Shown here in pieces: positions 4,994-16,203 of a stretch of DNA of 64,000 bases. This DNA comes from Psychroflexus sp. ALD_RP9 (GTDB lineage Bacteria; Bacteroidota; Bacteroidia; Flavobacteriales; Flavobacteriaceae): positions 744,001 through 808,000 of the forward strand of contig NZ_CP062973.1 of the NCBI RefSeq assembly GCF_017311165.1, read 5' to 3'. Below the pieces are notes generated by a model, which saw only the letters and a program-made list of their open reading frames with translations, was not told where the DNA came from and made no database searches. The translations under genes were made by a program, and so were the position numbers. Each line of letters opens with the position of its first letter. Positions within the stretch are counted from its first letter, which is position 1.

Positions 4994-6520
4994 ATGCCTA
5001 ATACCATCAAAACCCAAGACATCAATTCTACCGTTTGGAATGCCTGTGATACCTTTCGTGGGGTAATTGATCCATCACAATACAAAGACTATATTTTAGT
5101 CATGTTGTTTCTTAAATATGTTTCTGATGTATATTCACACAAATACAAAACCTACTTAGATAAATACGACAATAATAAAGCAAGAGCAGAACGTGCCATG
5201 GCGCATGAACGTTTTAATGTGCCCAAAAATTCACATTTTGACCATTTATACGAAAACCGAAACGAAAGTAATCTTGGTGAATTAATCGATATTGCTTTAG
5301 CTGATCTAGAAGATGCCAATCGAGAAAAACTGACTTCGCAAGATGGTGCTGGAATTTTTAGAAATATAAGTTTTAATAGCAACAATCTGGGAGACAAAAA
5401 ACAGAAAAACAGCCGACTTAAAAACTTATTGCAAGATTTTAATGACTTAGATTTAAACCCTGCTCATCTTGAAGCAAAGGACATTATTGGTGATGCTTAC
5501 GAATATTTAATTGCCAATTTTGCTAGTGATGCAGGTAAAAAAGCTGGCGAGTTTTACACACCATCTGAAGTTTCAACTTTATTAGCCAAATTAACCAAGT
5601 ATAAATCAGGTGCGCGTATTTATGACCCAACTTGTGGCTCAGCTTCTCTATTAATAAAAGCTGCTAAAGAAGTTGGCTCGAATGATTTTTCCCTTTATGG
5701 ACAAGAAGCCAACGGAAGCACTTGGGCATTGGCAGTAATGAATATGTTTTTACATGGTTTTGATAATGCGTCTATACGTTGGGGCGATACTTTACGCAAT
5801 CCCAAACATACCGAAGGCGACCAGCTCATGAAGTTTGATACTGTGGTTGCTAACCCACCATTTTCATTAGATAAATGGGGCTCAGACGATTTAAAAGACG
5901 ACCAATATAATCGTTTTTACCGTGGTTTACCACCCAAAAGCAAAGGCGATTGGGCGTTTATTTTGCACATGATAGAAAGTGCTTACGAAGACACAGGAAA
6001 AGTTGGCGTAATTGTACCGCATGGCGTTTTGTTTCGGGGAAGTGCCGAAGGCAGAATTCGAAAACAAGTGATTGAAGACAATTTATTAGATGCCGTTGTT
6101 GGTTTACCTGCTAATTTGTTTTTTGGAACAGGTATTCCTGCTGCTATTTTAATTTTTAATAAAGGAAGAGACCAAAAAACCGATACGCTATTTATAGATG
6201 CGAGCCAAGAGTTTGAAAGCAGCAAAAACCAAAACAAACTCAAAAATGAACATATCGAAAACATTGTTGCTACCTACCAACAATTTACCAACAACGAATT
6301 AGCAACAGGCGTTGATAAAGAAAAATTTAGCTATGTAGCCACTTTTAAAGAGTTAGAAGAAAATGAATTTAATCTCAACATTCCAAGATATGTAGATACC
6401 TTTGAAGAAGAAGAGCCTGTAGATATGCCAGCGGTAAAAACTGAAATTAATAAGCTTCAAACCGAACTAGCAAGTGTTCAGGAGAAAATGAATATGTACT
6501 TAGAAAAACTAGATTTATAA
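4994..6520 (+). CDS. hsdM: Type I restriction-modification DNA methyltransferase subunit HsdM
   Basis: 508 residues. An N-terminal helical HsdM_N domain (about 8-150) precedes an N6-adenine methyltransferase domain with the SAM-binding motif DPTCGSASLL (from D211) and the catalytic NPPF (287-290). AGEFYTPSEVSTLLAKL, characteristic of HsdM, lies between them. It methylates adenine in the target set by HsdS and is also part of the restriction complex. The C-terminus ends in a coiled coil expected to contact HsdS. First gene of the defence cluster; the next ORF starts 8 nt after its stop. Confidence 0.95.
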   Translation: MPNTIKTQDINSTVWNACDTFRGVIDPSQYKDYILVMLFLKYVSDVYSHKYKTYLDKYDNNKARAERAMAHERFNVPKNSHFDHLYENRNESNLGELIDIALADLEDANREKLTSQDGAGIFRNISFNSNNLGDKKQKNSRLKNLLQDFNDLDLNPAHLEAKDIIGDAYEYLIANFASDAGKKAGEFYTPSEVSTLLAKLTKYKSGARIYDPTCGSASLLIKAAKEVGSNDFSLYGQEANGSTWALAVMNMFLHGFDNASIRWGDTLRNPKHTEGDQLMKFDTVVANPPFSLDKWGSDDLKDDQYNRFYRGLPPKSKGDWAFILHMIESAYEDTGKVGVIVPHGVLFRGSAEGRIRKQVIEDNLLDAVVGLPANLFFGTGIPAAILIFNKGRDQKTDTLFIDASQEFESSKNQNKLKNEHIENIVATYQQFTNNELATGVDKEKFSYVATFKELEENEFNLNIPRYVDTFEEEEPVDMPAVKTEINKLQTELASVQEKMNMYLEKLDL

Positions 6521-6528
6521 ATTGTCAT

Positions 6529-6879
6529 ATGTATGTAGAATTCGAACCCCAAACCATCAATCGAACGGTGGTAATGATTATACCCAAACCAAAATTTTAC
6601 GAATGGGAAAAGCAAGTTTTTCCAGATGATGCTACAACAGCAGACAGAAGTGAGTTCAGCACGTATTTAATTGAAAATGAAATTGATCCTGATGAACCCA
6701 AAAAAGCCTTAAAAAATCACTGGGAATACATTTTTGAAAATGAACTTTTTGGCATTTGTACCGATGAAAACGAATGGCCAAAAAACAGAACTTGGAAACG
6801 CTTTACTGCCTATTTTGAAGTCAAGTATAGTACCCAAGTATTTGATTTACTGGATCGACCTGTTTTAAAACAAGATTGA
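6529..6879 (+). CDS. Small unknown protein between hsdM and hsdS
   Basis: 116 residues, acidic and tryptophan/phenylalanine-rich, with no signal peptide, membrane helix or cysteine cluster. I do not recognise the family. Visible features are an N-terminal beta-like stretch (RTVVMIIPKP), a central charged helix with DEPKKALKNHWEYIF, and ENEWPKNRTWKRF near the C-terminus. It lies 8 nt after hsdM and 37 nt before hsdS, so it must be co-transcribed with them. A role as an accessory or regulatory partner of the RM complex is a guess from position only. Confidence 0.7.
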   Translation: MYVEFEPQTINRTVVMIIPKPKFYEWEKQVFPDDATTADRSEFSTYLIENEIDPDEPKKALKNHWEYIFENELFGICTDENEWPKNRTWKRFTAYFEVKYSTQVFDLLDRPVLKQD

Positions 6880-6916: not shown

Positions 6917-8191
6917 ATGCCCAGCCAAACAAAAGACAAGACCACCACAACGCCACCAAAACCTGACTTTAAACACACCGAATTAGGTTGGATTCCTAAG
7001 GATTGGGAAGTGAAAAAGTTAGGGGAAATATTAATAAACTCATTTTCTGGTGGCACTCCTAATACCAAAAACCCTGAATATTATAATGGTAATTTACCTT
7101 TTATAAAGTCTGGAGAATTAAATCAAATCAACATAGTAAAAACAAAAGTTATGATTAGCGATTTGGGACTAAAAAACTCATCCGCAAAAATTATAACACC
7201 CATGACTTTATTGTTAGCAATGTATGGAGCTACAGCTGGAGTATGCGCTATATCAAGAATTGAAGGAGCAATAAATCAGGCAGTATTAGCATTATCTCCA
7301 AATGAAGAAAATGACAATAAATTTTTGTTCTTTAATTTAAGAGTAAATATGCCATCACTAGTTCATCGGCTAACCCAAGGCGGACAACCAAATTTTAGTG
7401 CAGGAACTATAAAAAAAATAAAACTAAAACTCCCACCACTACCCGAGCAACAAGCCATAGCCGATTGTTTAAGCACTTGGGATGAAGCCATAGAGAAGCA
7501 AGGCCAACTCATTAAAGCCAAGCAAGAACAACATAAAGGTTTGCGCCAACTCTTACTCACCGGCAAAAAACGCCTCACCAATCCTGAAACTGGGAAAGTG
7601 TTTGATGATGAATGGGTGGAGATACGAATTGGGGAAATATCGACATCATTTTCTGGTGGAACACCATCTAGTAATGTAAAAGAATATTGGAATGGTAATA
7701 TACATTGGATTAAATCAGGTGAACTAAATCAAGGTCAGATAAATAATACAAGTGGTTTTGTAGCTGAGTTGGGTATAAAAAACTCTTCTGCAAAAATAGT
7801 AAACCTAAATACTCTTTTAGTTGCTATGTATGGAGCGACAGCTGGAGTTTGTGCTATTACAAAAATAAAAGGAGCAATAAATCAAGCTGTACTTGCGATT
7901 ATTCCTAATAAAATGACAAACAATTCATTTTTATTTTACAAACTTAAAATGATAATGCCGTCGATGGTTCATCGCCTTACACAAGGTGGTCAACCAAATT
8001 TGAGTGGTGGAATTATAAAAAACATAAAAATAGAAACACCAAACTTAAAAGAACAGACTGCTATTGCCGAAGTTTTAGAAACTTCGAGCAACGAGATAGA
8101 ATTATTACAAGAACAACGCCACCAACTCCAATTGCAAAAAAAAGGTTTAATGCAGGTGTTGCTGAGTGGGGAGAAGCGATTGGTGAGTTAA
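6917..8191 (+). CDS. hsdS: Type I restriction-modification specificity subunit HsdS
   Basis: 424 residues: TRD1 (about 30-175), central conserved helix (about 176-230), TRD2 (about 232-375) and C-terminal conserved helix. The two TRDs align without gaps over 141 residues (FSGGTP to EQxAIA) with 89 identities by hand count (63%), including MYGATAGVCAI and VHRLTQGGQPN in both. HsdS normally has unrelated TRDs that read two different half-sites; near-duplicate TRDs predict a symmetric bipartite target. The two halves of the gene differ clearly at DNA level, so this is not a recent duplication. Confidence 0.93.
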   Translation: MPSQTKDKTTTTPPKPDFKHTELGWIPKDWEVKKLGEILINSFSGGTPNTKNPEYYNGNLPFIKSGELNQINIVKTKVMISDLGLKNSSAKIITPMTLLLAMYGATAGVCAISRIEGAINQAVLALSPNEENDNKFLFFNLRVNMPSLVHRLTQGGQPNFSAGTIKKIKLKLPPLPEQQAIADCLSTWDEAIEKQGQLIKAKQEQHKGLRQLLLTGKKRLTNPETGKVFDDEWVEIRIGEISTSFSGGTPSSNVKEYWNGNIHWIKSGELNQGQINNTSGFVAELGIKNSSAKIVNLNTLLVAMYGATAGVCAITKIKGAINQAVLAIIPNKMTNNSFLFYKLKMIMPSMVHRLTQGGQPNLSGGIIKNIKIETPNLKEQTAIAEVLETSSNEIELLQEQRHQLQLQKKGLMQVLLSGEKRLVS

Positions 8192-8201
8192 AAAAATTAT
8201 T

Positions 8202-8615
8202 ATGGACAATTATCAAAAATTTAAAAACTTACTTGAGTATTTTGTTTCGCACCTTGAGTATTGTGTTAATAAAGATAAAAAAAATGATAGATATAAAAAA
8301 TACATTAAAAACATTAAACCGTTTTTAAAATCTGGACAAGGACACAAGGGACAAAAAATTCAAAAACAAATTGAAAGTTGGGACACTTATGATGATGAAA
8401 GAATATGTATTAATGTTAATCCAACTGGTTACAAAACAGTTGGATGCTATTTAAACTGGTTAGATACAGCCATAAATGTAAATGCTTTATGGGAAGATGA
8501 TTCTATTAAAAAACTAAAAATCGTAAAAGATTCATATCCACCAGCAAACGCAAAAGATATAAAAACTGAAAGTTTAGAAAGTTTAAGCTTATTTGATGGT
8601 AAACACGCAAATTAG
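8202..8615 (+). CDS. Putative N-terminal DNA-binding module of the McrB-like protein, split off by an in-frame TAG
   Basis: 137 residues, cytoplasmic, starting NYQKFKNLLEYFV with SGQGHKGQKIQKQ and a mixed alpha/beta centre (CINVNPTGYK, VGCYLNWLDT). The frame continues open past the TAG at 8613-8615 straight into the McrB-like ORF. The latter has no ATG before its Walker A motif. I infer that these are two parts of one ancestral gene of about 552 residues, since McrB proteins carry a variable N-terminal DNA-recognition domain. It could instead be a genuine separate subunit. Starts 10 nt after hsdS. Confidence 0.6.
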   Translation: MDNYQKFKNLLEYFVSHLEYCVNKDKKNDRYKKYIKNIKPFLKSGQGHKGQKIQKQIESWDTYDDERICINVNPTGYKTVGCYLNWLDTAINVNALWEDDSIKKLKIVKDSYPPANAKDIKTESLESLSLFDGKHAN

Positions 8616-8690: not shown

Positions 8691-9857
8691 TTGGAAATAA
8701 TAAAACCATACATTGACTTGCTTGATAATTCAAAAAACATAATACTAACTGGTGCTCCAGGAACTGGCAAAACCTATCTAGCAAAGCAAATTGCTAAACA
8801 AATGATTGGAATTGAAAATGATGAAGAGCTTGAAAAAAGTAAACATTTCGATTTTGTTCAATTTCATCCTTCTTATGATTATACAGATTTTGTAGAAGGC
8901 TTACGACCTACAAAACCTGATGAAAATGGAAATATAGGTTTCGAAATTAAAAATGGAATTTTTAAGGCTTTTTGTGAAAAAGCTATCGAAACCAAAACAG
9001 AAATAAAGACAGATAATTTTGATGAGTCTTGGTTAGGTCTTCTAAATGAAGTAAGAAAAAATATATCAGAAAATAAACTTACTAAAATTGGTAATTGGGA
9101 ATATAGCTTATCAAGTGTAAACTCTTTAAAATACGTTTCTGAGACTTCACCATCAAAGTATTCCTTTACCATAAACAAACAAAATGTACTAGATACCTAT
9201 CAAGGTAAATTAGCGAGACCTTCTGGTGCATTTAAAAAAGATATGGAAGACGTTGTAGATTATATGAAAGATAAACATAATTTAATTGATTATAAAAAAA
9301 CGAAGATAAATAAGAGTAACTCAAATAATAATTATGTTTTTATAATAGATGAAATTAATAGGGGCGAAATATCAAAAATATTTGGAGAATTATTTTTTGC
9401 AATAGATCCAAGTTATCGTGGTAAGAAAGGTGCTGTAAAAACACAATACTCAAATCTTCATGAAAACGAAAATGAAGTGTTTTATATACCTGAAAACGTA
9501 TTCATTATAGGCACAATGAATGATATTGATAGAAGTGTAGAAAGTTTTGATTTTGCCATGCGAAGACGATTTACTTGGTTGGAGATTACTGCTGAGCAAA
9601 GTGCTATTAATATGAATCTTTCAGCCGAATTGAAAAACAAAATACAAAGCTTAAATAATCAAATATCAAAAACTGATGGACTCAACTCTTCATATCATAT
9701 CGGAGCAGCTTATTTTCTAAATGCTGAAGGTATCCCTAGAGAAGACTATGATAAAATTTGGGAGTTAAGAATTGAACCATTAATAAAAGAGTATTTACGT
9801 GGCATCCCTGAAAATGAAGATAAAATTGACAAGCTTAAAATAGCTTATAATTCATGA
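8691..9857 (+). CDS. mcrB: McrB-like AAA+ GTPase subunit of a type IV restriction system
   Basis: 388 residues from a TTG start at 8691; no ATG exists in frame between the upstream TAG and Walker A. Motifs: Walker A GAPGTGKT (21-28), Walker B FIIDEINRGE (D220, E221), and the McrB signature TMNDIDRS (N277-S282) followed by FAMRRRF as sensor/arginine-finger region. McrB hexamers hydrolyse GTP and drive the McrC nuclease on modified DNA. The stop overlaps the mcrC start by 4 nt (ATGA). The E. coli homologue also makes a short form lacking the DNA-binding domain, so this ORF may act as such a form. Confidence 0.85.
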   Translation: MEIIKPYIDLLDNSKNIILTGAPGTGKTYLAKQIAKQMIGIENDEELEKSKHFDFVQFHPSYDYTDFVEGLRPTKPDENGNIGFEIKNGIFKAFCEKAIETKTEIKTDNFDESWLGLLNEVRKNISENKLTKIGNWEYSLSSVNSLKYVSETSPSKYSFTINKQNVLDTYQGKLARPSGAFKKDMEDVVDYMKDKHNLIDYKKTKINKSNSNNNYVFIIDEINRGEISKIFGELFFAIDPSYRGKKGAVKTQYSNLHENENEVFYIPENVFIIGTMNDIDRSVESFDFAMRRRFTWLEITAEQSAINMNLSAELKNKIQSLNNQISKTDGLNSSYHIGAAYFLNAEGIPREDYDKIWELRIEPLIKEYLRGIPENEDKIDKLKIAYNS

Positions 9858-11176
9858 TGAGAACAACAGATAATAATGGTGGTAAGAGTTTAGTTGATTT
9901 CGATGATTATACTCTAAGTGATTTGAATGGTATTGCAAATCGAAATCTAAATGATTTACAAAAAGAAAATCCTGACTTATTGGTTTTTCCGAGTAAACTT
10001 GGAGAATATAATGATGACGTTGAAAAATCTCATATTTTTTCTCTAAATGGAGATAAGTTAACAACATTTAATTTAATGGGATTTATAGGCAGAAATTCTA
10101 CACAACTTACCATTTCTTCTCGTTTTGCAAAAGATGACCACAATGATTATTTTTTGCATTATATGTTACAAAAAGTGTTCTCGATTAACATTTTAAATTT
10201 CGACCAAACTCCTGATAATGAGAATATTTGGGACTTTTTACTCTACCTTTTTCCTTTTTATTTAAAAAAAGCTTATTCGCAAGGTATATATAAATCTTAC
10301 ATGCGAAAGAATTATAACGATGCAAACGTAAAAGGGACAATAGAAGTCAAAAGACATATCAAAAGAAATATTCCATTCATGGGTAAGGTAGCCTACTCTA
10401 ATAGAGAACACAGTTATGATAATAACATAACCCAACTTATTAGACATACAATTGAGTATATTAAAGCTCACCCCTATGGAAATGGTGTCTTAAATACAGA
10501 TAAAACTACACGCGAAATTGTCAACAAATTTATTTTTGTAACTCAAAAAAATTATAATAAAAATTATCGTCTAAAAGTAATATCATCTAATTTACAATCT
10601 ATTTCCCATCCCTATTATACAGAATATAGAATATTGCAAAAGATATGTTTAAAAATCTTAAGACATGAAAAAATAACCTTTGGAAATGAAAAAGATAAGG
10701 TATACGGTTTGCTGTTTGATGGAGCATGGCTTTGGGAAGAGTATTTAAATACTATTTTAAGCAAATATGGATTTAAGCACCCATCTAATAAAACATCTAG
10801 CGGTGCAATATATTTATTTTCAAAACCAAAACGATATAAACGTTATCCTGACTTTTGGAAAAATGATATTATTCTTGATGCTAAGTATAAAAGGATGATA
10901 GAACCTTTGGACAGAAATGATATGAATCAAATAATTTCGTATATGTACGTTAAAAAGGCTCAAATTGGTGGATTTATTCACCCAATAAAAAACATGCAAA
11001 ATTTGGAATGTACTGATATTGGAATATTAGAAGGATATGGCGGGTGTGTTAAAGTTTGGTCTCTACCAATACCACAAAAGGCTAAAAAATTTGAAAATTT
11101 TATTTCTCACATGAAAGATAATGAAAGTGAATTTGTGAAAAATTTAAATGAGTTAGAAGTCGATATTTTGAATTAG
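9854..11176 (+). CDS. mcrC: McrC-like endonuclease subunit of a type IV restriction system
   Basis: 440 residues. The N-terminal half is a McrB-interaction region (LNLMGFIGRN-like segment near 75-85). The C-terminal half has a PD-(D/E)xK nuclease core: YPDFW with D333, then ILDAKYKRM with D342 and K344. That motif set is the PF10117 McrBC 5-methylcytosine restriction pattern. McrC cuts DNA only together with the GTP-driven McrB ring. It is translationally coupled to mcrB by the ATGA overlap. The next cluster genes are on the opposite strand, so this ends the left-hand operon. Confidence 0.85.
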   Translation: MMRTTDNNGGKSLVDFDDYTLSDLNGIANRNLNDLQKENPDLLVFPSKLGEYNDDVEKSHIFSLNGDKLTTFNLMGFIGRNSTQLTISSRFAKDDHNDYFLHYMLQKVFSINILNFDQTPDNENIWDFLLYLFPFYLKKAYSQGIYKSYMRKNYNDANVKGTIEVKRHIKRNIPFMGKVAYSNREHSYDNNITQLIRHTIEYIKAHPYGNGVLNTDKTTREIVNKFIFVTQKNYNKNYRLKVISSNLQSISHPYYTEYRILQKICLKILRHEKITFGNEKDKVYGLLFDGAWLWEEYLNTILSKYGFKHPSNKTSSGAIYLFSKPKRYKRYPDFWKNDIILDAKYKRMIEPLDRNDMNQIISYMYVKKAQIGGFIHPIKNMQNLECTDIGILEGYGGCVKVWSLPIPQKAKKFENFISHMKDNESEFVKNLNELEVDILN

Positions 11177-11308: not shown

Positions 11309-11761
11309 TTATTCATTTTTTTGCTTCTCCAAATCAAAGCGTATATCTTCTTTTATCAGTTCTGCAACGTTAATTGTTGGTAATAAAAACTCATTAAATA
11401 CAGTATTCTCTGTTTTTGCATGCAATACGCCACGTAATGTTCCAACGGTGATCATGGCTATGTGAGCAACAAAGCCTTTTGGTATACACAGTTCTGTTTT
11501 TTCTTTAGATAAAAAATCATCCCAAGCTTTTTTTGTTATTTGAAAAATACAACTTATTTCTAAGACTAAAAATGGAGATTTAGCTTGTAAAAAGCTTGTT
11601 GAAAATGAGATAGAGATATACTTATTGTCTTGATCAACTCCAAACTTAAAGCCTACATTAACGTCCACTTCTTCATTTTTAGAAAAAGCAGATTCAATGA
11701 TTGCAAATTGGTCTGTAGTAATCTTTTTTAAAGAAAACCCTATACTTTGGTTTTTAGACAT
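11309..11761 (-). CDS. SecB-like chaperone of a toxin-antitoxin-chaperone (TAC) module
   Basis: 150 residues, no signal peptide. An N-terminal beta-rich part (about 1-75, alternating hydrophobic strands such as KYISISFSTSF and LVLEISCIF) precedes a helix with HIAMITVGTLRG (100-111) and LPTINVAELI (127-136). The latter corresponds in position to the SecB segment LAPVNFDALF. SecB-like chaperones in TAC systems (Rv1957, CmdC) fold and protect the antitoxin. The start codon overlaps the antitoxin stop by 1 nt (TAATG), implying translational coupling. The assignment rests on fold pattern and gene order; no search was possible. Confidence 0.65.
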   Translation of the reverse strand: MSKNQSIGFSLKKITTDQFAIIESAFSKNEEVDVNVGFKFGVDQDNKYISISFSTSFLQAKSPFLVLEISCIFQITKKAWDDFLSKEKTELCIPKGFVAHIAMITVGTLRGVLHAKTENTVFNEFLLPTINVAELIKEDIRFDLEKQKNE

Positions 11762-12237
11762 TACGCAACAGGTTTTAAATGATTATCGTGCTCATCAGAT
11801 TCAAAAATACTAGATATGAGTGACTCATAACTTAGTGTATTGCTTTCTTGGTAAACATCAGTTGTAGACTTCACCATTGTTTTGGTAGTTTGAGTATCTA
11901 ATTTAAAACTAGTTTCAAAATTTGGAACTTTTATTAAACTAATATTTAGTATTGCTTCTAATTTAGTGATAGTCTCTAATTGTAGATTTTCAGTTCCTTT
12001 CAATAATTTGTTTATATACTGTGGTGAACATTCCATTGCAGAAGCAAGCTCTTTTTGAGTTTTAGGAAACTTATCAGCTATCTTATTAGCTTTAACCTGT
12101 GACATTATTTTAACTGCAATAGCAAAAGAAATATCTAACCAAGCTTCGTTTTTTTCACGATTTTTAGCACTTTCAATCCAAGATTTATCTTGTATTGAAT
12201 TTGTCTTTAATCTGTTTTTTATATTCTCGATACTCAT
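11761..12237 (-). CDS. HTH (XRE/HigA-like) antitoxin with C-terminal extension
   Basis: 158 residues. A helical N-terminus (1-55) leads to a Cro/C1-type helix-turn-helix at about 58-97 (TQKELASAMECSPQYINKLLKG...LETITKLEAIL). A roughly 60-residue, Thr/Ser-rich extension follows (99-158, with LSYESLISSIF). In TAC modules such an extension is the chaperone-addiction sequence bound by the SecB-like partner. It lies 8 nt after the toxin gene and overlaps the SecB-like gene by 1 nt. It is expected to repress the module promoter; an inverted repeat sits just upstream of the toxin start. Confidence 0.75.
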   Translation of the reverse strand: MSIENIKNRLKTNSIQDKSWIESAKNREKNEAWLDISFAIAVKIMSQVKANKIADKFPKTQKELASAMECSPQYINKLLKGTENLQLETITKLEAILNISLIKVPNFETSFKLDTQTTKTMVKSTTDVYQESNTLSYESLISSIFESDEHDNHLKPVA

Positions 12238-12245
12238 AGTTTCTT

Positions 12246-12794
12246 TTAAGTTAATTCTACAAAATCTAAATTATCTTCTTCATTTTCCATCAAATAATTT
12301 CTAGTAAATTCAAGTTTTTCGAGCTCTTTAAGAAGATGTATTCTGGTGTTCATTGTTTTTGTGAGTTTTATAGCTCCACCACAAACCACAAAGAAATTTA
12401 CATCTATTCTTATAGCATAAATTCTTAACCAACTTTTTCTTGACAAACCTTTTGCTTTATCTTTTTCAAATTTTTCTATTTTCCCTACAGATAAAGGTTC
12501 AAAAAAAGTAGATAAGGTTTCATCAGGATCAACTTTTCCATATTCTGCAAGTTGCTTTATTTTCTTTTCAAGTGATTTTGCTTCTTTTCTTGTTCTAATT
12601 ATGGCTTCTTCAATGGTTATATCACTCCAAAAACCACTTTTTAAGTCCTTTTCGTGTTCTTCAAAAAACTCTCGAAGATACATTGGATTATTCCATAAGT
12701 CAAAATACTTTTCAAATTCATGCAAAGATTCATCATCATATTGTACTGAGTACAGGCTGTCTGTAATTACTGCAAATGTATCAATTATTTTCAT
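12246..12794 (-). CDS. Putative HigB/RelE-superfamily toxin of the TAC module
   Basis: 182 residues. The C-terminal half has the RelE/HigB-like pattern: KFEKDKAKG, SWLRIYAIRI (121-130), GGAIKLTKTM (139-148), then an amphipathic helix HLLKELEKLE. The N-terminal about 90 residues form an unusual extension. HigB-type toxins cleave mRNA on the ribosome. It is the first gene of a minus-strand operon toxin-antitoxin-chaperone, the same order as HigB1-HigA1-Rv1957 of Mycobacterium tuberculosis. The toxin class is inferred; the gene order and the coupled neighbours are the main support. Confidence 0.65.
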   Translation of the reverse strand: MKIIDTFAVITDSLYSVQYDDESLHEFEKYFDLWNNPMYLREFFEEHEKDLKSGFWSDITIEEAIIRTRKEAKSLEKKIKQLAEYGKVDPDETLSTFFEPLSVGKIEKFEKDKAKGLSRKSWLRIYAIRIDVNFFVVCGGAIKLTKTMNTRIHLLKELEKLEFTRNYLMENEEDNLDFVELT

Positions 12795-12798
12795 TAAA

Positions 12799-12840
12799 TC
12801 AACCTGTAGGTTTATTTTTATATTTTAATTATAATTAAAA
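12799..12840 (-). promoter_or_regulatory. Candidate operator/promoter of the TAC module
   Basis: Immediately upstream of the toxin ATG lies AACCTGTAGGTT (12801-12812), part of a 20-bp imperfect palindrome with one arm mismatch. Next to it is the perfect 18-bp palindrome TTTTAATTATAATTAAAA (12823-12840). Both are placed where an autoregulating antitoxin would bind. The same 193-nt gap must also hold the hsdR promoter. Confidence 0.5.
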
Positions 12841-12987: not shown

Positions 12988-15900
12988 ATGCAAAACCCAT
13001 CATTTCAAGAAGACCATAGCTCGCAAATTCCAGCTTTGCAATTGCTGATTAATATGGGCTATAACTATCTTAACCCACACCAGGCCTTAGAAGCAAGGGG
13101 AAACAAAACCGCAAACGTATTGTTGGAAGATGTGCTTAAAAAACAGCTTAAACATATTAATTCTGCAAAGCTTTCTAGCCATGAAGCTGTACCATTTACT
13201 GATGGAAATATTGAGCAAGCGGTTTTGGCTTTAAAGAATGTGGCTTTAGTGGATGGTTATCAAGCAACCGCACAAAAAATATATGAATTGCTTACATTGG
13301 GTTTTTCGGTAGAACAAAATGTTGGGGGAAACATTAAAACTTTTGACATCAATTTTATCGACTGGAAGAACATAAACAACAATGTATTTCATGTTACCGA
13401 AGAATTTTCTGTATTGCGCACAGGTTTAAATGAACACCAACGCCCAGACATTATTTTATTTGTCAATGGCATTCCTATGGTGGTCATTGAATGTAAACGT
13501 CCCGATAAAAAAGATGCGCTTAGTGAAGCTATTTCACAAAATTTACGCAATCAAAAACAAGATGGAATAAGGCAATTGTACATGTATGCGCAATTGGTCA
13601 TGGCAATTAGTGGAAATGAAGGAAGTTATGCAACAACAGGAACGCCTGAGAAATTTTGGGCAAAATGGGAAGAGAAATTTAATAGTAAGCAAAAAGAAGA
13701 AAAGCATAAAAGTGATTTATTCACCTTAAAAAATCAAAAGCTATCCGATGAAAACAAAAAAGCTTTATTCGCTGATCGCTACTACTACGTAAGAAAATTC
13801 TTTGATGAATTAGAGCTAGAAGAAGTACAACCCACAATTCAAGATGAATATCTATATAATTTATGTCGTCCTGAACGTTTGCTCAATTTGAGTTTTAATT
13901 TTGTTTTATTTGATAATGGCAGTAAAAAAATAGCTCGTTATCAGCAATTTTTCGCGATCAAAAAAGCCATAAAACAAATCTCTAAACCAACAACTTCTCA
14001 AAATCAGCAACGACTAGGCGGTGTAGTTTGGCATACACAAGGAAGTGGAAAATCCTTAACAATGGTCATGTTGGCGCAAGCCATCGCCATGCAACCAAGC
14101 ATTAAAAATCCTAGAATTGTTTTGGTAACCGATAGAACTGACTTAGATAGGCAAATTACAAGCACTTTTGAAAAATGTGGTATGCCAGTAAAGAATGCTA
14201 AATCGGGTAAAGAATTAGGTAACTTGCTCAAAAAAGAAACTGATGCAGTAATTACAACTATTATCAACAAATTTGAAACAGCAGTTAAGAAAATTAATCC
14301 ACCTTTAGAGAGCAATAATATATTTGTACTGGTAGATGAAGGTCACCGAACTCAACATGGTACGTTTAACATAGAAATGCAAAAAGCAATACCCAATGCC
14401 TGTTTCATTGCTTTTACAGGCACTCCGTTATTTAAAAAAGACAAAAACACCTTGGGGAAATTTGGTACATTAATCGACACCTACACTGTTGACCAAGCCG
14501 TAAAAGACAAAGCGGTTGTTCCATTATTATATGAAGGCAGACATGTAATGCAAGATGTCAATGCTTCACCATTAGATAACTTTTTCAACATGGTCTCTGA
14601 ATCACTTTCAGATTATGAAAAAGCAGATTTAAAAAAGAAATTTAGCAGGGCAGATCAAATCAATATTGCAGATCAAAAAATTTATGCCATTGCATGGGAC
14701 ATATCTAAGCATTATAAAGCCAATTTTCAAGGAACGGGATTTAAAGGTCAATTGGTTTGTCAAAATAAGCTATCAGCAGTTCGCTATAAAAAATATTTAG
14801 ACGAGATAGGAATTGTAAGTTCTGAATTAGTGATTTCTCCACCGGATGAAAGAGAAGGCGAAGAAACAGCTTATGGGAAAAATCAAGAAGAAGTAAAGCA
14901 ATTTTGGCATAAAATGAAAGACCAACATGGCAATGCTAAATCTTATCAAGAAAATATAGTTTCGGCTTTTAAACATAGCGAAGAACCTGAAATTATTATT
15001 GTGGTAGATAAATTACTTACAGGCTTTGATGCACCTAATAACACCGTTTTATATTTAACAAGAAAATTGGTTGGGCATACGCTTTTACAGGCAATAGCAA
15101 GAGTTAATCGAGTAGCCAAAGACAAAAACTACGGCTATATTATAGATTATTATGGCGTAATTGAAGAATTAGACAATGCATTAGAAACCTATTCGAATTT
15201 TGAAGAGTTTGATGAAGAAGATTTATCGGGTACATTGACCAACATCAATAAAGAAATTGAAAAGTTACCCCAAGCCCACAGCGATTTAAAGCAGATTTTT
15301 AAAAGCATTAAAAACAAAAAAGACTTAGAAGCTTATCAATCATATTTACGAGATGAAGCTATCCGTGTTAAGTTTTATGAAGCCTTATCATCTTATGCTA
15401 GATTATTGAAATTAGCCTTATCATCCATAGATTTTCATAAAAAAACAGAAGATCAACTCGTACAGAAGTATAAAAGTGATTTGAAGTTTTTTGTAAAGTT
15501 GAAAAATGCAGTTTCAGGTCGTTATTCAGATAAAATCGATTATCGAAAATATGAAGGCCAAATTCAAAAGTTAATAGACACCCATATTCCAGCTGATGAA
15601 ATTATTCAAATGAATGAGCTAGTAAATATTTTTGACAAAGAAGCCTTTGAAGCCGAAGTTGAAAAAACAACTGGAGAAGTTGCTAAAGCCGATAAGATTG
15701 CTTCACGAACAGAAAAACACATCACCGAGAAAATGGACGAAGATCCTGCCTTTTATAAGCGTTTTTCACAACTCATAAAAGAAACGATAGACGACTATCT
15801 ACAAAAAAGGATAAACGATAAAGAATACCTTGAAAGAATGAAAACCTACATGCAAAAGGTATTATCGCATGAAGATTCTGAATTACCTGAAAAATTGAAA

Positions 15901-16203
15901 TCTAAACCAGTTGCAGCAGCTTTTTATGGCGTAGCTAAAGAAGAATTTAAGGAGCTAATTAATGATGAAGTCACGCTGACTTCTATTTCAGAAGATTTAG
16001 CATTACAGTCTGATGAAATTATATTGCAATTGAAAAAAGTAGATTGGGAAAAAAGCGTGGATATTCCTAAGAAAATGGTTTTTCAAATTGGCGACTATAT
16101 CATCGATGAAGTTCGAGATAAGTATGACTTAAAATTAGGCTTTGAACAAATTGATTCAATAGCAGAACGAATAGTAGAAATTGCTAAAAGAAGATACACC
16201 TAA
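12988..16203 (+). CDS. hsdR: Type I restriction endonuclease subunit HsdR
   Basis: 1071 residues. The N-terminal PD-(D/E)xK nuclease is RPDIILF (D154) with IECKRP (E168, K170). The superfamily 2 translocase motor has Walker A GSGKS (352-356), DEGH box (450-453), AFTGTP, and a C-terminal helicase lobe with LTGFDAPNN and QAIARVNR. A long helical C-terminal region for complex assembly follows. HsdR translocates and cuts DNA lacking HsdM/HsdS methylation. It is separated from hsdM-hsdS by mcrBC and the TAC module, so it needs its own promoter at 12795-12987. Its stop overlaps the next start by 1 nt. Confidence 0.95.
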   Translation: MQNPSFQEDHSSQIPALQLLINMGYNYLNPHQALEARGNKTANVLLEDVLKKQLKHINSAKLSSHEAVPFTDGNIEQAVLALKNVALVDGYQATAQKIYELLTLGFSVEQNVGGNIKTFDINFIDWKNINNNVFHVTEEFSVLRTGLNEHQRPDIILFVNGIPMVVIECKRPDKKDALSEAISQNLRNQKQDGIRQLYMYAQLVMAISGNEGSYATTGTPEKFWAKWEEKFNSKQKEEKHKSDLFTLKNQKLSDENKKALFADRYYYVRKFFDELELEEVQPTIQDEYLYNLCRPERLLNLSFNFVLFDNGSKKIARYQQFFAIKKAIKQISKPTTSQNQQRLGGVVWHTQGSGKSLTMVMLAQAIAMQPSIKNPRIVLVTDRTDLDRQITSTFEKCGMPVKNAKSGKELGNLLKKETDAVITTIINKFETAVKKINPPLESNNIFVLVDEGHRTQHGTFNIEMQKAIPNACFIAFTGTPLFKKDKNTLGKFGTLIDTYTVDQAVKDKAVVPLLYEGRHVMQDVNASPLDNFFNMVSESLSDYEKADLKKKFSRADQINIADQKIYAIAWDISKHYKANFQGTGFKGQLVCQNKLSAVRYKKYLDEIGIVSSELVISPPDEREGEETAYGKNQEEVKQFWHKMKDQHGNAKSYQENIVSAFKHSEEPEIIIVVDKLLTGFDAPNNTVLYLTRKLVGHTLLQAIARVNRVAKDKNYGYIIDYYGVIEELDNALETYSNFEEFDEEDLSGTLTNINKEIEKLPQAHSDLKQIFKSIKNKKDLEAYQSYLRDEAIRVKFYEALSSYARLLKLALSSIDFHKKTEDQLVQKYKSDLKFFVKLKNAVSGRYSDKIDYRKYEGQIQKLIDTHIPADEIIQMNELVNIFDKEAFEAEVEKTTGEVAKADKIASRTEKHITEKMDEDPAFYKRFSQLIKETIDDYLQKRINDKEYLERMKTYMQKVLSHEDSELPEKLKSKPVAAAFYGVAKEEFKELINDEVTLTSISEDLALQSDEIILQLKKVDWEKSVDIPKKMVFQIGDYIIDEVRDKYDLKLGFEQIDSIAERIVEIAKRRYT

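Follow-up and report, generated by a model that had tools for sequence, protein, structure and literature searches.

A probable HigBAC-like toxin-antitoxin-chaperone module carried as cargo in a type I restriction operon of Psychroflexus

The window, by which we mean the whole stretch of 64,000 nucleotides that was analysed, contains a type I restriction operon with further genes between hsdS and hsdR. The series of genes is hsdM (4994..6520, plus strand; PF02384, 6.4e-109), a gene of 116 aa (6529-6879), hsdS (6917..8191, plus strand; PF01420, 3.1e-52), a gene of 137 aa (8202-8615), a gene for a McrB-like AAA ATPase (8691..9857, plus strand; AAA_5, PF07728, 2.8e-13), an mcrC-like gene with a McrBC domain (9854..11176, plus strand; PF10117, 5.5e-44), a three-gene module on the opposite strand, hsdR (12988..16203, plus strand; PF04313, 8.6e-41, and PF18766, 2.2e-79) and a gene for a YgjP-like metallopeptidase. 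The 116-aa and 137-aa genes are small members of the restriction operon with no Pfam or PADLOC match, the McrB-like and mcrC-like genes are co-cargo of the module, and hsdR is divergent from it. Mapping of the ORFs placed the module on the minus strand from 12794 to 11309. It consists of a toxin gene (12246..12794, 182 aa), an antitoxin gene (11761..12237, 158 aa) and the gene of a SecB-like chaperone (11309..11761, 150 aa), with a gap of 8 nt between the first two and a stop/start overlap of 1 nt between the last two. A previous reading of the sequence alone (hereafter the sequence-only reading) had described exactly this arrangement and had placed it between mcrC and hsdR, which agrees with the McrBC domain on one side and HsdR on the other.

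At E<=1e-3, we found 550 homologues of the toxin, 154 of the antitoxin and 200 of the SecB-like protein (for each, the listing covers the best 120). The three ORFs are thus conserved families and not chance reading frames. The toxin and SecB-like profiles have one match each within the genome, which is a single contig of 2.56 Mb, and the toxin profile has matches, some of them weak or partial, in 18 of the 299 genomes of the window's bacterial family. Among the matches listed, the nearest named toxin homologue belongs to a Psychroflexus MAG (82%). The toxin profile yielded 374 confirmed genome loci, of which we analysed the best 80. An antitoxin ORF adjoins the toxin in 78 of these 80 loci, and in 55 a SecB-like ORF comes next after the antitoxin; 23 have an antitoxin without an adjacent chaperone, and two (L018 and L045) have no adjacent antitoxin. 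The absence of a chaperone is uncertain for one of the 23, L025, where the contig stops 239 nt past the antitoxin. In L018, from Gelidibacter algens (toxin at 9038-9523), there is no antitoxin match in the locus and the module looks interrupted. The order toxin, antitoxin, chaperone, which the sequence-only reading had likened to HigB1-HigA1-Rv1957, is thus the order found in 55 of the best 80 loci.

Structure comparison assigned the toxin a predicted fold of a divergent RelE/HigB protein and thus the BECR fold. The match is moderate, with no Foldseek match at E<=0.001, and residues 11-171 of the model align with just 110-114 residues of the targets. A RelE/HigB-like toxin had been proposed before, and this part of the proposal stands; the large N-terminal extension that came with it does not, since the RelE-like domain begins at about residue 11 and the additional residues lie inside the domain. 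The region that is longer than in HigB and RelE covers approximately 12480..12686 on the minus strand (residues about 37-105, limits inferred) and comprises helices at 37-46 and 61-85 and a long loop. No relevant Pfam or NCBIfam family and no solved structure matched the toxin by sequence. A curated RelE, HigB or ParE family was matched neither by the toxin nor among the 16 Pfam families that any of 50 relatives matched, and because such a match is absent, we label the toxin as RelE-fold and not as a member of a named Pfam family. The alignment of relatives has the invariant residues K113, R124, Y126, K143 and E157, which are candidates only for residues involved in mRNA cleavage.

The antitoxin matches HTH_3 (PF01381, E 2.8e-8) at residues 60-101 of 158, as well as the PADLOC models PDC-M64C (1e-13) and PDC-M64B (2.8e-11). 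Thus, it is an XRE-type antitoxin, and the long tail that had been read from the sequence is real. The tail (11764..11931, minus strand; residues about 103-158) is a candidate chaperone-addiction region: it is variable in the alignment apart from its end, and antitoxin length tracks the presence of the chaperone. The C-terminus LKPVA (11764..11778, minus strand; family consensus LKLVA) is, judging from the endings of homologues, a candidate ClpXP/ssrA-like degron. A terminal Ala is present in 94 of the best 120 of the 154 antitoxin homologues, and LVA is the commonest ending, found in 57 of the 107 among these 120 that have at least 140 aa. The tmRNA tag of the host is GENNYAMAA, and some antitoxin ends closely resemble tmRNA tags, for instance NYALAA (L016) and RYAVAA (L031). 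Passages on known TACs describe a C-terminal ChAD on the antitoxin and, for CmdA, an LAA end that is recognised by ClpXP (PMC5105189, PMC6377645, PMC11618068). In four Flavobacterium loci (L029, L057, L059 and L063), the chaperones are more divergent and the antitoxins have a terminal Cys in place of Ala.

For the third protein, the sequence-only reading had suggested a SecB-like chaperone and marked the fold for checking. Structure comparison indeed recovered the SecB fold as the predicted fold, and the nearest solved chains are SecB and the TAC chaperone Rv1957 (Foldseek TM-scores 0.36-0.58, best row 5mtw). The fold searches also returned beta-lactamase and thioesterase rows, which we passed over as weak. 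By sequence, the chaperone matched no Pfam family at E<=10, no relevant NCBIfam family and no solved structure.

The operon thus combines a toxin, an antitoxin and a SecB-like chaperone, which is the composition of a TAC. TACs are a known kind of system with anti-phage members, as described in passages of several publications (PMC11618068, PMC9519451, PMC5105189, PMC6377645, PMC11980606). The closest likeness in build is to HigBAC (HigB1-HigA1-Rv1957), which, according to passages of PMC5105189 and PMC6377645, shares the gene order, the RelE-fold toxin, the C-terminal extension of the antitoxin and the SecB-like chaperone. However, the window's toxin exceeds the closest solved HigB chains by about 60-70 residues, with no detectable sequence similarity to them, and the window's chaperone is 10-14% identical to the 5mtw chains in structural alignments. 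CmdTAC (PD-T4-9) and MqsRAC are alike in their three-gene layout with a SecB-like chaperone, and the PD-T4-9_C model has a weak match in the window's module (1.4e-3). CmdT, in contrast, is an ADP-ribosyltransferase and CmdA is another kind of antitoxin, and MqsR/MqsA are in turn unrelated to CmdTAC (passages of PMC11618068 and PMC9519451, respectively). The toxin chain of the Streptococcus pneumoniae TA module 6af3/6af4 differs in its length of 113-119 aa. We take this module to be HigBA, a two-gene system. MqsR/MqsA are likewise not known to be related to the toxin family of the window.

The group of modules has already been flagged, since all three window proteins match models of the PADLOC candidate PDC-M64. 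Of the proteins in the alignments, 48 of 50 toxins and all antitoxins (40 of 40) and chaperones (52 of 52) have a match to a PDC-M64B or PDC-M64C model. However, no model named M64A matched, and PDC-M64 is a candidate label. According to passages of PMC12988326, PDC candidates derive from a guilt-by-embedding approach, which fits the position of the module inside a restriction operon. A description of PDC-M64 as a TAC was not found in the literature that we searched, which excluded preprints and most subscription papers, and neither was the name 'PDC-M64'; a word search of PMC4257090 returned no Bacteroidota terms. Our analysis thus suggests how a defence candidate predicted by bioinformatics may work. 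Switches of this type are already known, but the relatives reveal how the chaperone helper is acquired and lost.

When comparing loci with and without a chaperone, we find that their antitoxins differ at the C-terminus. In counts over loci, which ignore kinship, the antitoxins have a median length of 156 aa (142-188) in the 55 chaperone loci and 124 aa (96-348) in the 23 others, and they end in Ala in 32/55 versus 1/23 and in A, G, S or C in 51/55 versus 6/23. As a background, ORFs of at least 200 aa end in Ala in 34/687 and in A/G/S/C in 119/687 cases, and a terminal Ala is rare in toxins (1/80) and chaperones (3/55). The C-terminal extension is thus absent from the chaperone-free relatives, with the exception of six of the 23 that reach at least 140 aa; these six run against the trend, as does the additional locus L117. 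The same holds for four of the 55 chaperone-bearing loci whose antitoxins have other endings (L021, L046, L055 and L074) and for extra loci with a chaperone where the antitoxin ends in Ile (L113-L115) or Glu (L119). In the extra loci L120-L122, the antitoxins end in Ala.

To compare independent pairs, we used a careful tree of 82 toxins. It includes 9 of the 14 extra loci (all but L114 and L119-L122) and omits eight of the 80 loci: L068 with a broken toxin ORF, L025 at a contig end, L018 and L045 with no antitoxin, and L046, L064, L067 and L077, which are long or doubtful. On this tree, the state of the chaperone needs 18 changes, at least 10 of them on well-supported branches. We observed an association of the chaperone with a terminal A/G/S/C (on average 7.5 of 10 independent pairs for and 0.1 against, median p 0.016), with an antitoxin of at least 145 aa (7.4 of 10 for, 0.0 against, median p 0.016) and with one of at least 140 aa (5.9 of 10 for, 0.0 against, median p 0.031), where the residue group and the length cut-offs were picked after inspection of the data. 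Terminal Ala alone was not significant on this tree (median p 0.0625), and in an earlier quick tree with six supported pairs no comparison was significant (median p 0.25 for at least 140 aa, 0.0625 for A/G/S/C and 0.25 for Ala). Antitoxin length and terminal residue thus tend to follow the state of the chaperone among relatives.

Chaperone dependence of a two-gene TA pair has been studied by laboratory grafting (passages of PMC5105189). The relatives found here offer natural matched pairs with and without a chaperone, so the step from a TA to chaperone dependence is directly testable. One pair is L112 and L116, which lie in related restriction operons (HsdM 67% and HsdR 62% identical). In L112, from the genus of the window, the toxin shares 65% identity with the L116 toxin, the antitoxin is 113 residues long and a chaperone is lacking. 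The other case is L117, whose toxin and antitoxin (first 114 residues) are 62% and 68% identical to those of the window and whose antitoxin is fused to a SecB end: 15 of the 18 residues before the last match residues 134-151 of the SecB homologue P0143 in frame, with a score of 74 versus a best of 48 in 300 shuffled tails. A search of its genome (G123) returned no SecB-like match. The simplest reading of these sequences is that a single deletion took the end of the tail and nearly the whole chaperone gene. The L117 toxin starts with GTG, which may indicate weakened expression or decay. In another chaperone-free locus (L043:7619-8973), the antitoxin has a long C-terminal part that looks TPR-like by eye (348 aa in total), and the ORF after it resembles, also by eye, a Panacea/SocA-domain protein. 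It is possible that the stabilising partner has been swapped there.

Modules with and without the chaperone share a palindrome, AACCTNNAGGTT, upstream of the toxin gene. In the window, it is part of the leader AATAAACCTACAGGTTGATTTA (12795..12816, minus strand), a candidate operator that abuts the toxin start and contains the exact core AACCTACAGGTT at 12801-12812. Of 79 relatives, 63 carry the palindrome with 9-10 of its 10 positions matching and 72 with 8 or more, whereas the corresponding counts for 870 upstream regions of control ORFs are 4 and 42. Among the 58 loci unseen at motif discovery, 46 have at least 9 and 52 at least 8 of the 10 positions. From the start of the palindrome to the mechanical start codon, the distance is 18 nt in 38 of these 72 loci and 10 nt in 17. 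Both half-sites are altered mirror-wise in L021 and L056, as would be expected for a DNA site bound by a dimer. Only the location before the toxin gene carries weight, since the core is itself commoner in the window than in shuffled sequence (10 occurrences with at most one mismatch versus a mean of 2.35) and a longer pattern matches the genome as often as its control does (two real and two reversed-control matches). A perfect 18-nt AT-only palindrome in the toxin-hsdR interval (12823-12840; p about 0.004, single-base shuffles) was rejected as the operator, as the near relatives compared lack it.

Many different cargoes occupy the slot between hsdS and hsdR, and the module is one of them. We examined 43 places whose HsdR shares at least 55% identity with the L116 protein and left out one with a cut HsdR. 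In the 42 remaining homologous operons, the slot contains other ORFs in 35, nothing of at least 70 aa in five, a TAC in one and a TA in one, where contents were taken from mechanical ORFs, a few of which may be spurious. Ten cargo proteins, hand-picked from 56 unlabelled ones, were scanned: three matched Abi_2, one Fic, two pentapeptide repeats, one DUF4268 and two, weakly, an IS200-like family, and one had no match. Whole modules differ even between close operons. L116 and L042 have HsdM and HsdR proteins that are 95% and 93% identical, but their toxins are 28% and their chaperones 39% identical. At the DNA level, a 100% identical stretch of 54 nt covers the leader and the beginning of the toxin gene, followed by no blastn similarity until the start of HsdR. 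The position of the module thus favours embedding and cassette exchange and not a specific tie to this restriction enzyme.

Taken as a whole, the gene order, predicted folds, association of tail and chaperone, conserved palindrome and embedding computed here are best explained by a HigBAC-like TAC module, carried as cargo between hsdS and hsdR, that works by the following cycle; we consider this reading likely. The RelE-fold toxin of 182 aa would cleave mRNA, with the ribosome as the probable site. It would be bound by the XRE antitoxin, which would also repress the operon at the palindrome preceding the toxin start. The unstable tail of the antitoxin would end in an ssrA-like degron (PVA here), and the antitoxin would thus persist only as long as its tail is held by the SecB-like protein. 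A phage protein or another client that removes the chaperone would expose the antitoxin to degradation by ClpXP, and the freed toxin would stop the growth of the infected cell. By analogy to anti-phage TACs, the module probably halts growth on virus attack.

It is possible, with a clearly lower probability, that the module has the TAC mechanism but is a selfish addiction element, which stabilises the restriction cassette or itself, does not sense phages and spreads as exchangeable cargo. The divergent modules of L116 and L042 beside near-identical Hsd proteins, their shared stretch at the leader and toxin start, and the predominance of other cargo in the 42 slots speak for such an element. However, the Abi_2 and Fic proteins in the same slot argue against it, as does the action against phage of known TACs of such build (passages of PMC9519451 and PMC11618068).

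Location had led the sequence-only reading to suggest a stand-alone or guard role linked to restriction. As a guard, the module would release the toxin when HsdR or HsdS is blocked or lost and would stop the cell after failed restriction. We give the guard role little weight and consider it quite unlikely, as the slot is hypervariable and no module was found around 13 of the 14 other hsdR genes homologous to that of the window (in 12 of these 13, the stretch extends as far as hsdS, and the cargo is not the same). In its favour, modules sit between hsdM/hsdS on one side and hsdR on the other in L036, L042, L054, L055, L112 and L116, and HsdM or HsdR occurs in the flanks of 9 of the 43 modules for which each flank covers at least 8 kb. 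This is above the approximately 2% of random 20-kb stretches that would carry a type I gene, a rough estimate from genome counts of the PF02384 methylase (present in 259 of 299 family genomes, at 1-8 matches per genome among those listed). In the other 34 of the 43 modules, however, the profiles found no type I gene, and the window's module, with a leader of its own, runs divergently from hsdR.

It is very improbable that the SecB-like protein serves general export and is encoded here by chance. In favour of such a role, the genome has no match to SecB (PF02556), TAC chaperones can stand in for Escherichia coli SecB (passages of PMC5105189) and L044 has a second short SecB-like ORF (6451-6702, 83 aa) about 3.5 kb upstream of the module with no listed antitoxin adjoining. 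Against it, the antitoxin that precedes the chaperone gene has 142 aa or more in all 55 loci (partly by construction, as loci were fetched via the toxin), and the genomes of three relatives, G174, G123 and G121, have no SecB-like match, so the gene is not housekeeping in the bacterial family.

Within the preferred reading of a TAC module carried as cargo, we tentatively propose that chaperone addiction is a plug-in unit, consisting of the degron tail end and the SecB-like gene, that may have been gained and lost repeatedly on a single RelE-fold TA core of Bacteroidota and related bacteria. Entire modules would be swapped as hsdS-hsdR cassettes with the conserved leader as the left crossover, which would provide each restriction operon with an exchangeable backup defence that responds to a phage trigger of its own. 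New here are the gain and loss of the chaperone together with the antitoxin end, the leader palindrome and the hypervariable cargo slot.

A phage or plasmid as the home of the module was rejected, as relatives occur in just three plasmid records, one phage record and three viral contigs at the limits used. No chaperone was found beside the relatives in the three viral contigs, where L093 covers just 489 nt past the antitoxin. Lastly, the cargo slot in the type I operons of the window's bacterial family is worth mining for defence genes. In L112-L162, the hypervariable hsdS-hsdR slot holds many unknown genes, and the window's genome has a second such type I operon (L158) with a Fic protein among its cargo.
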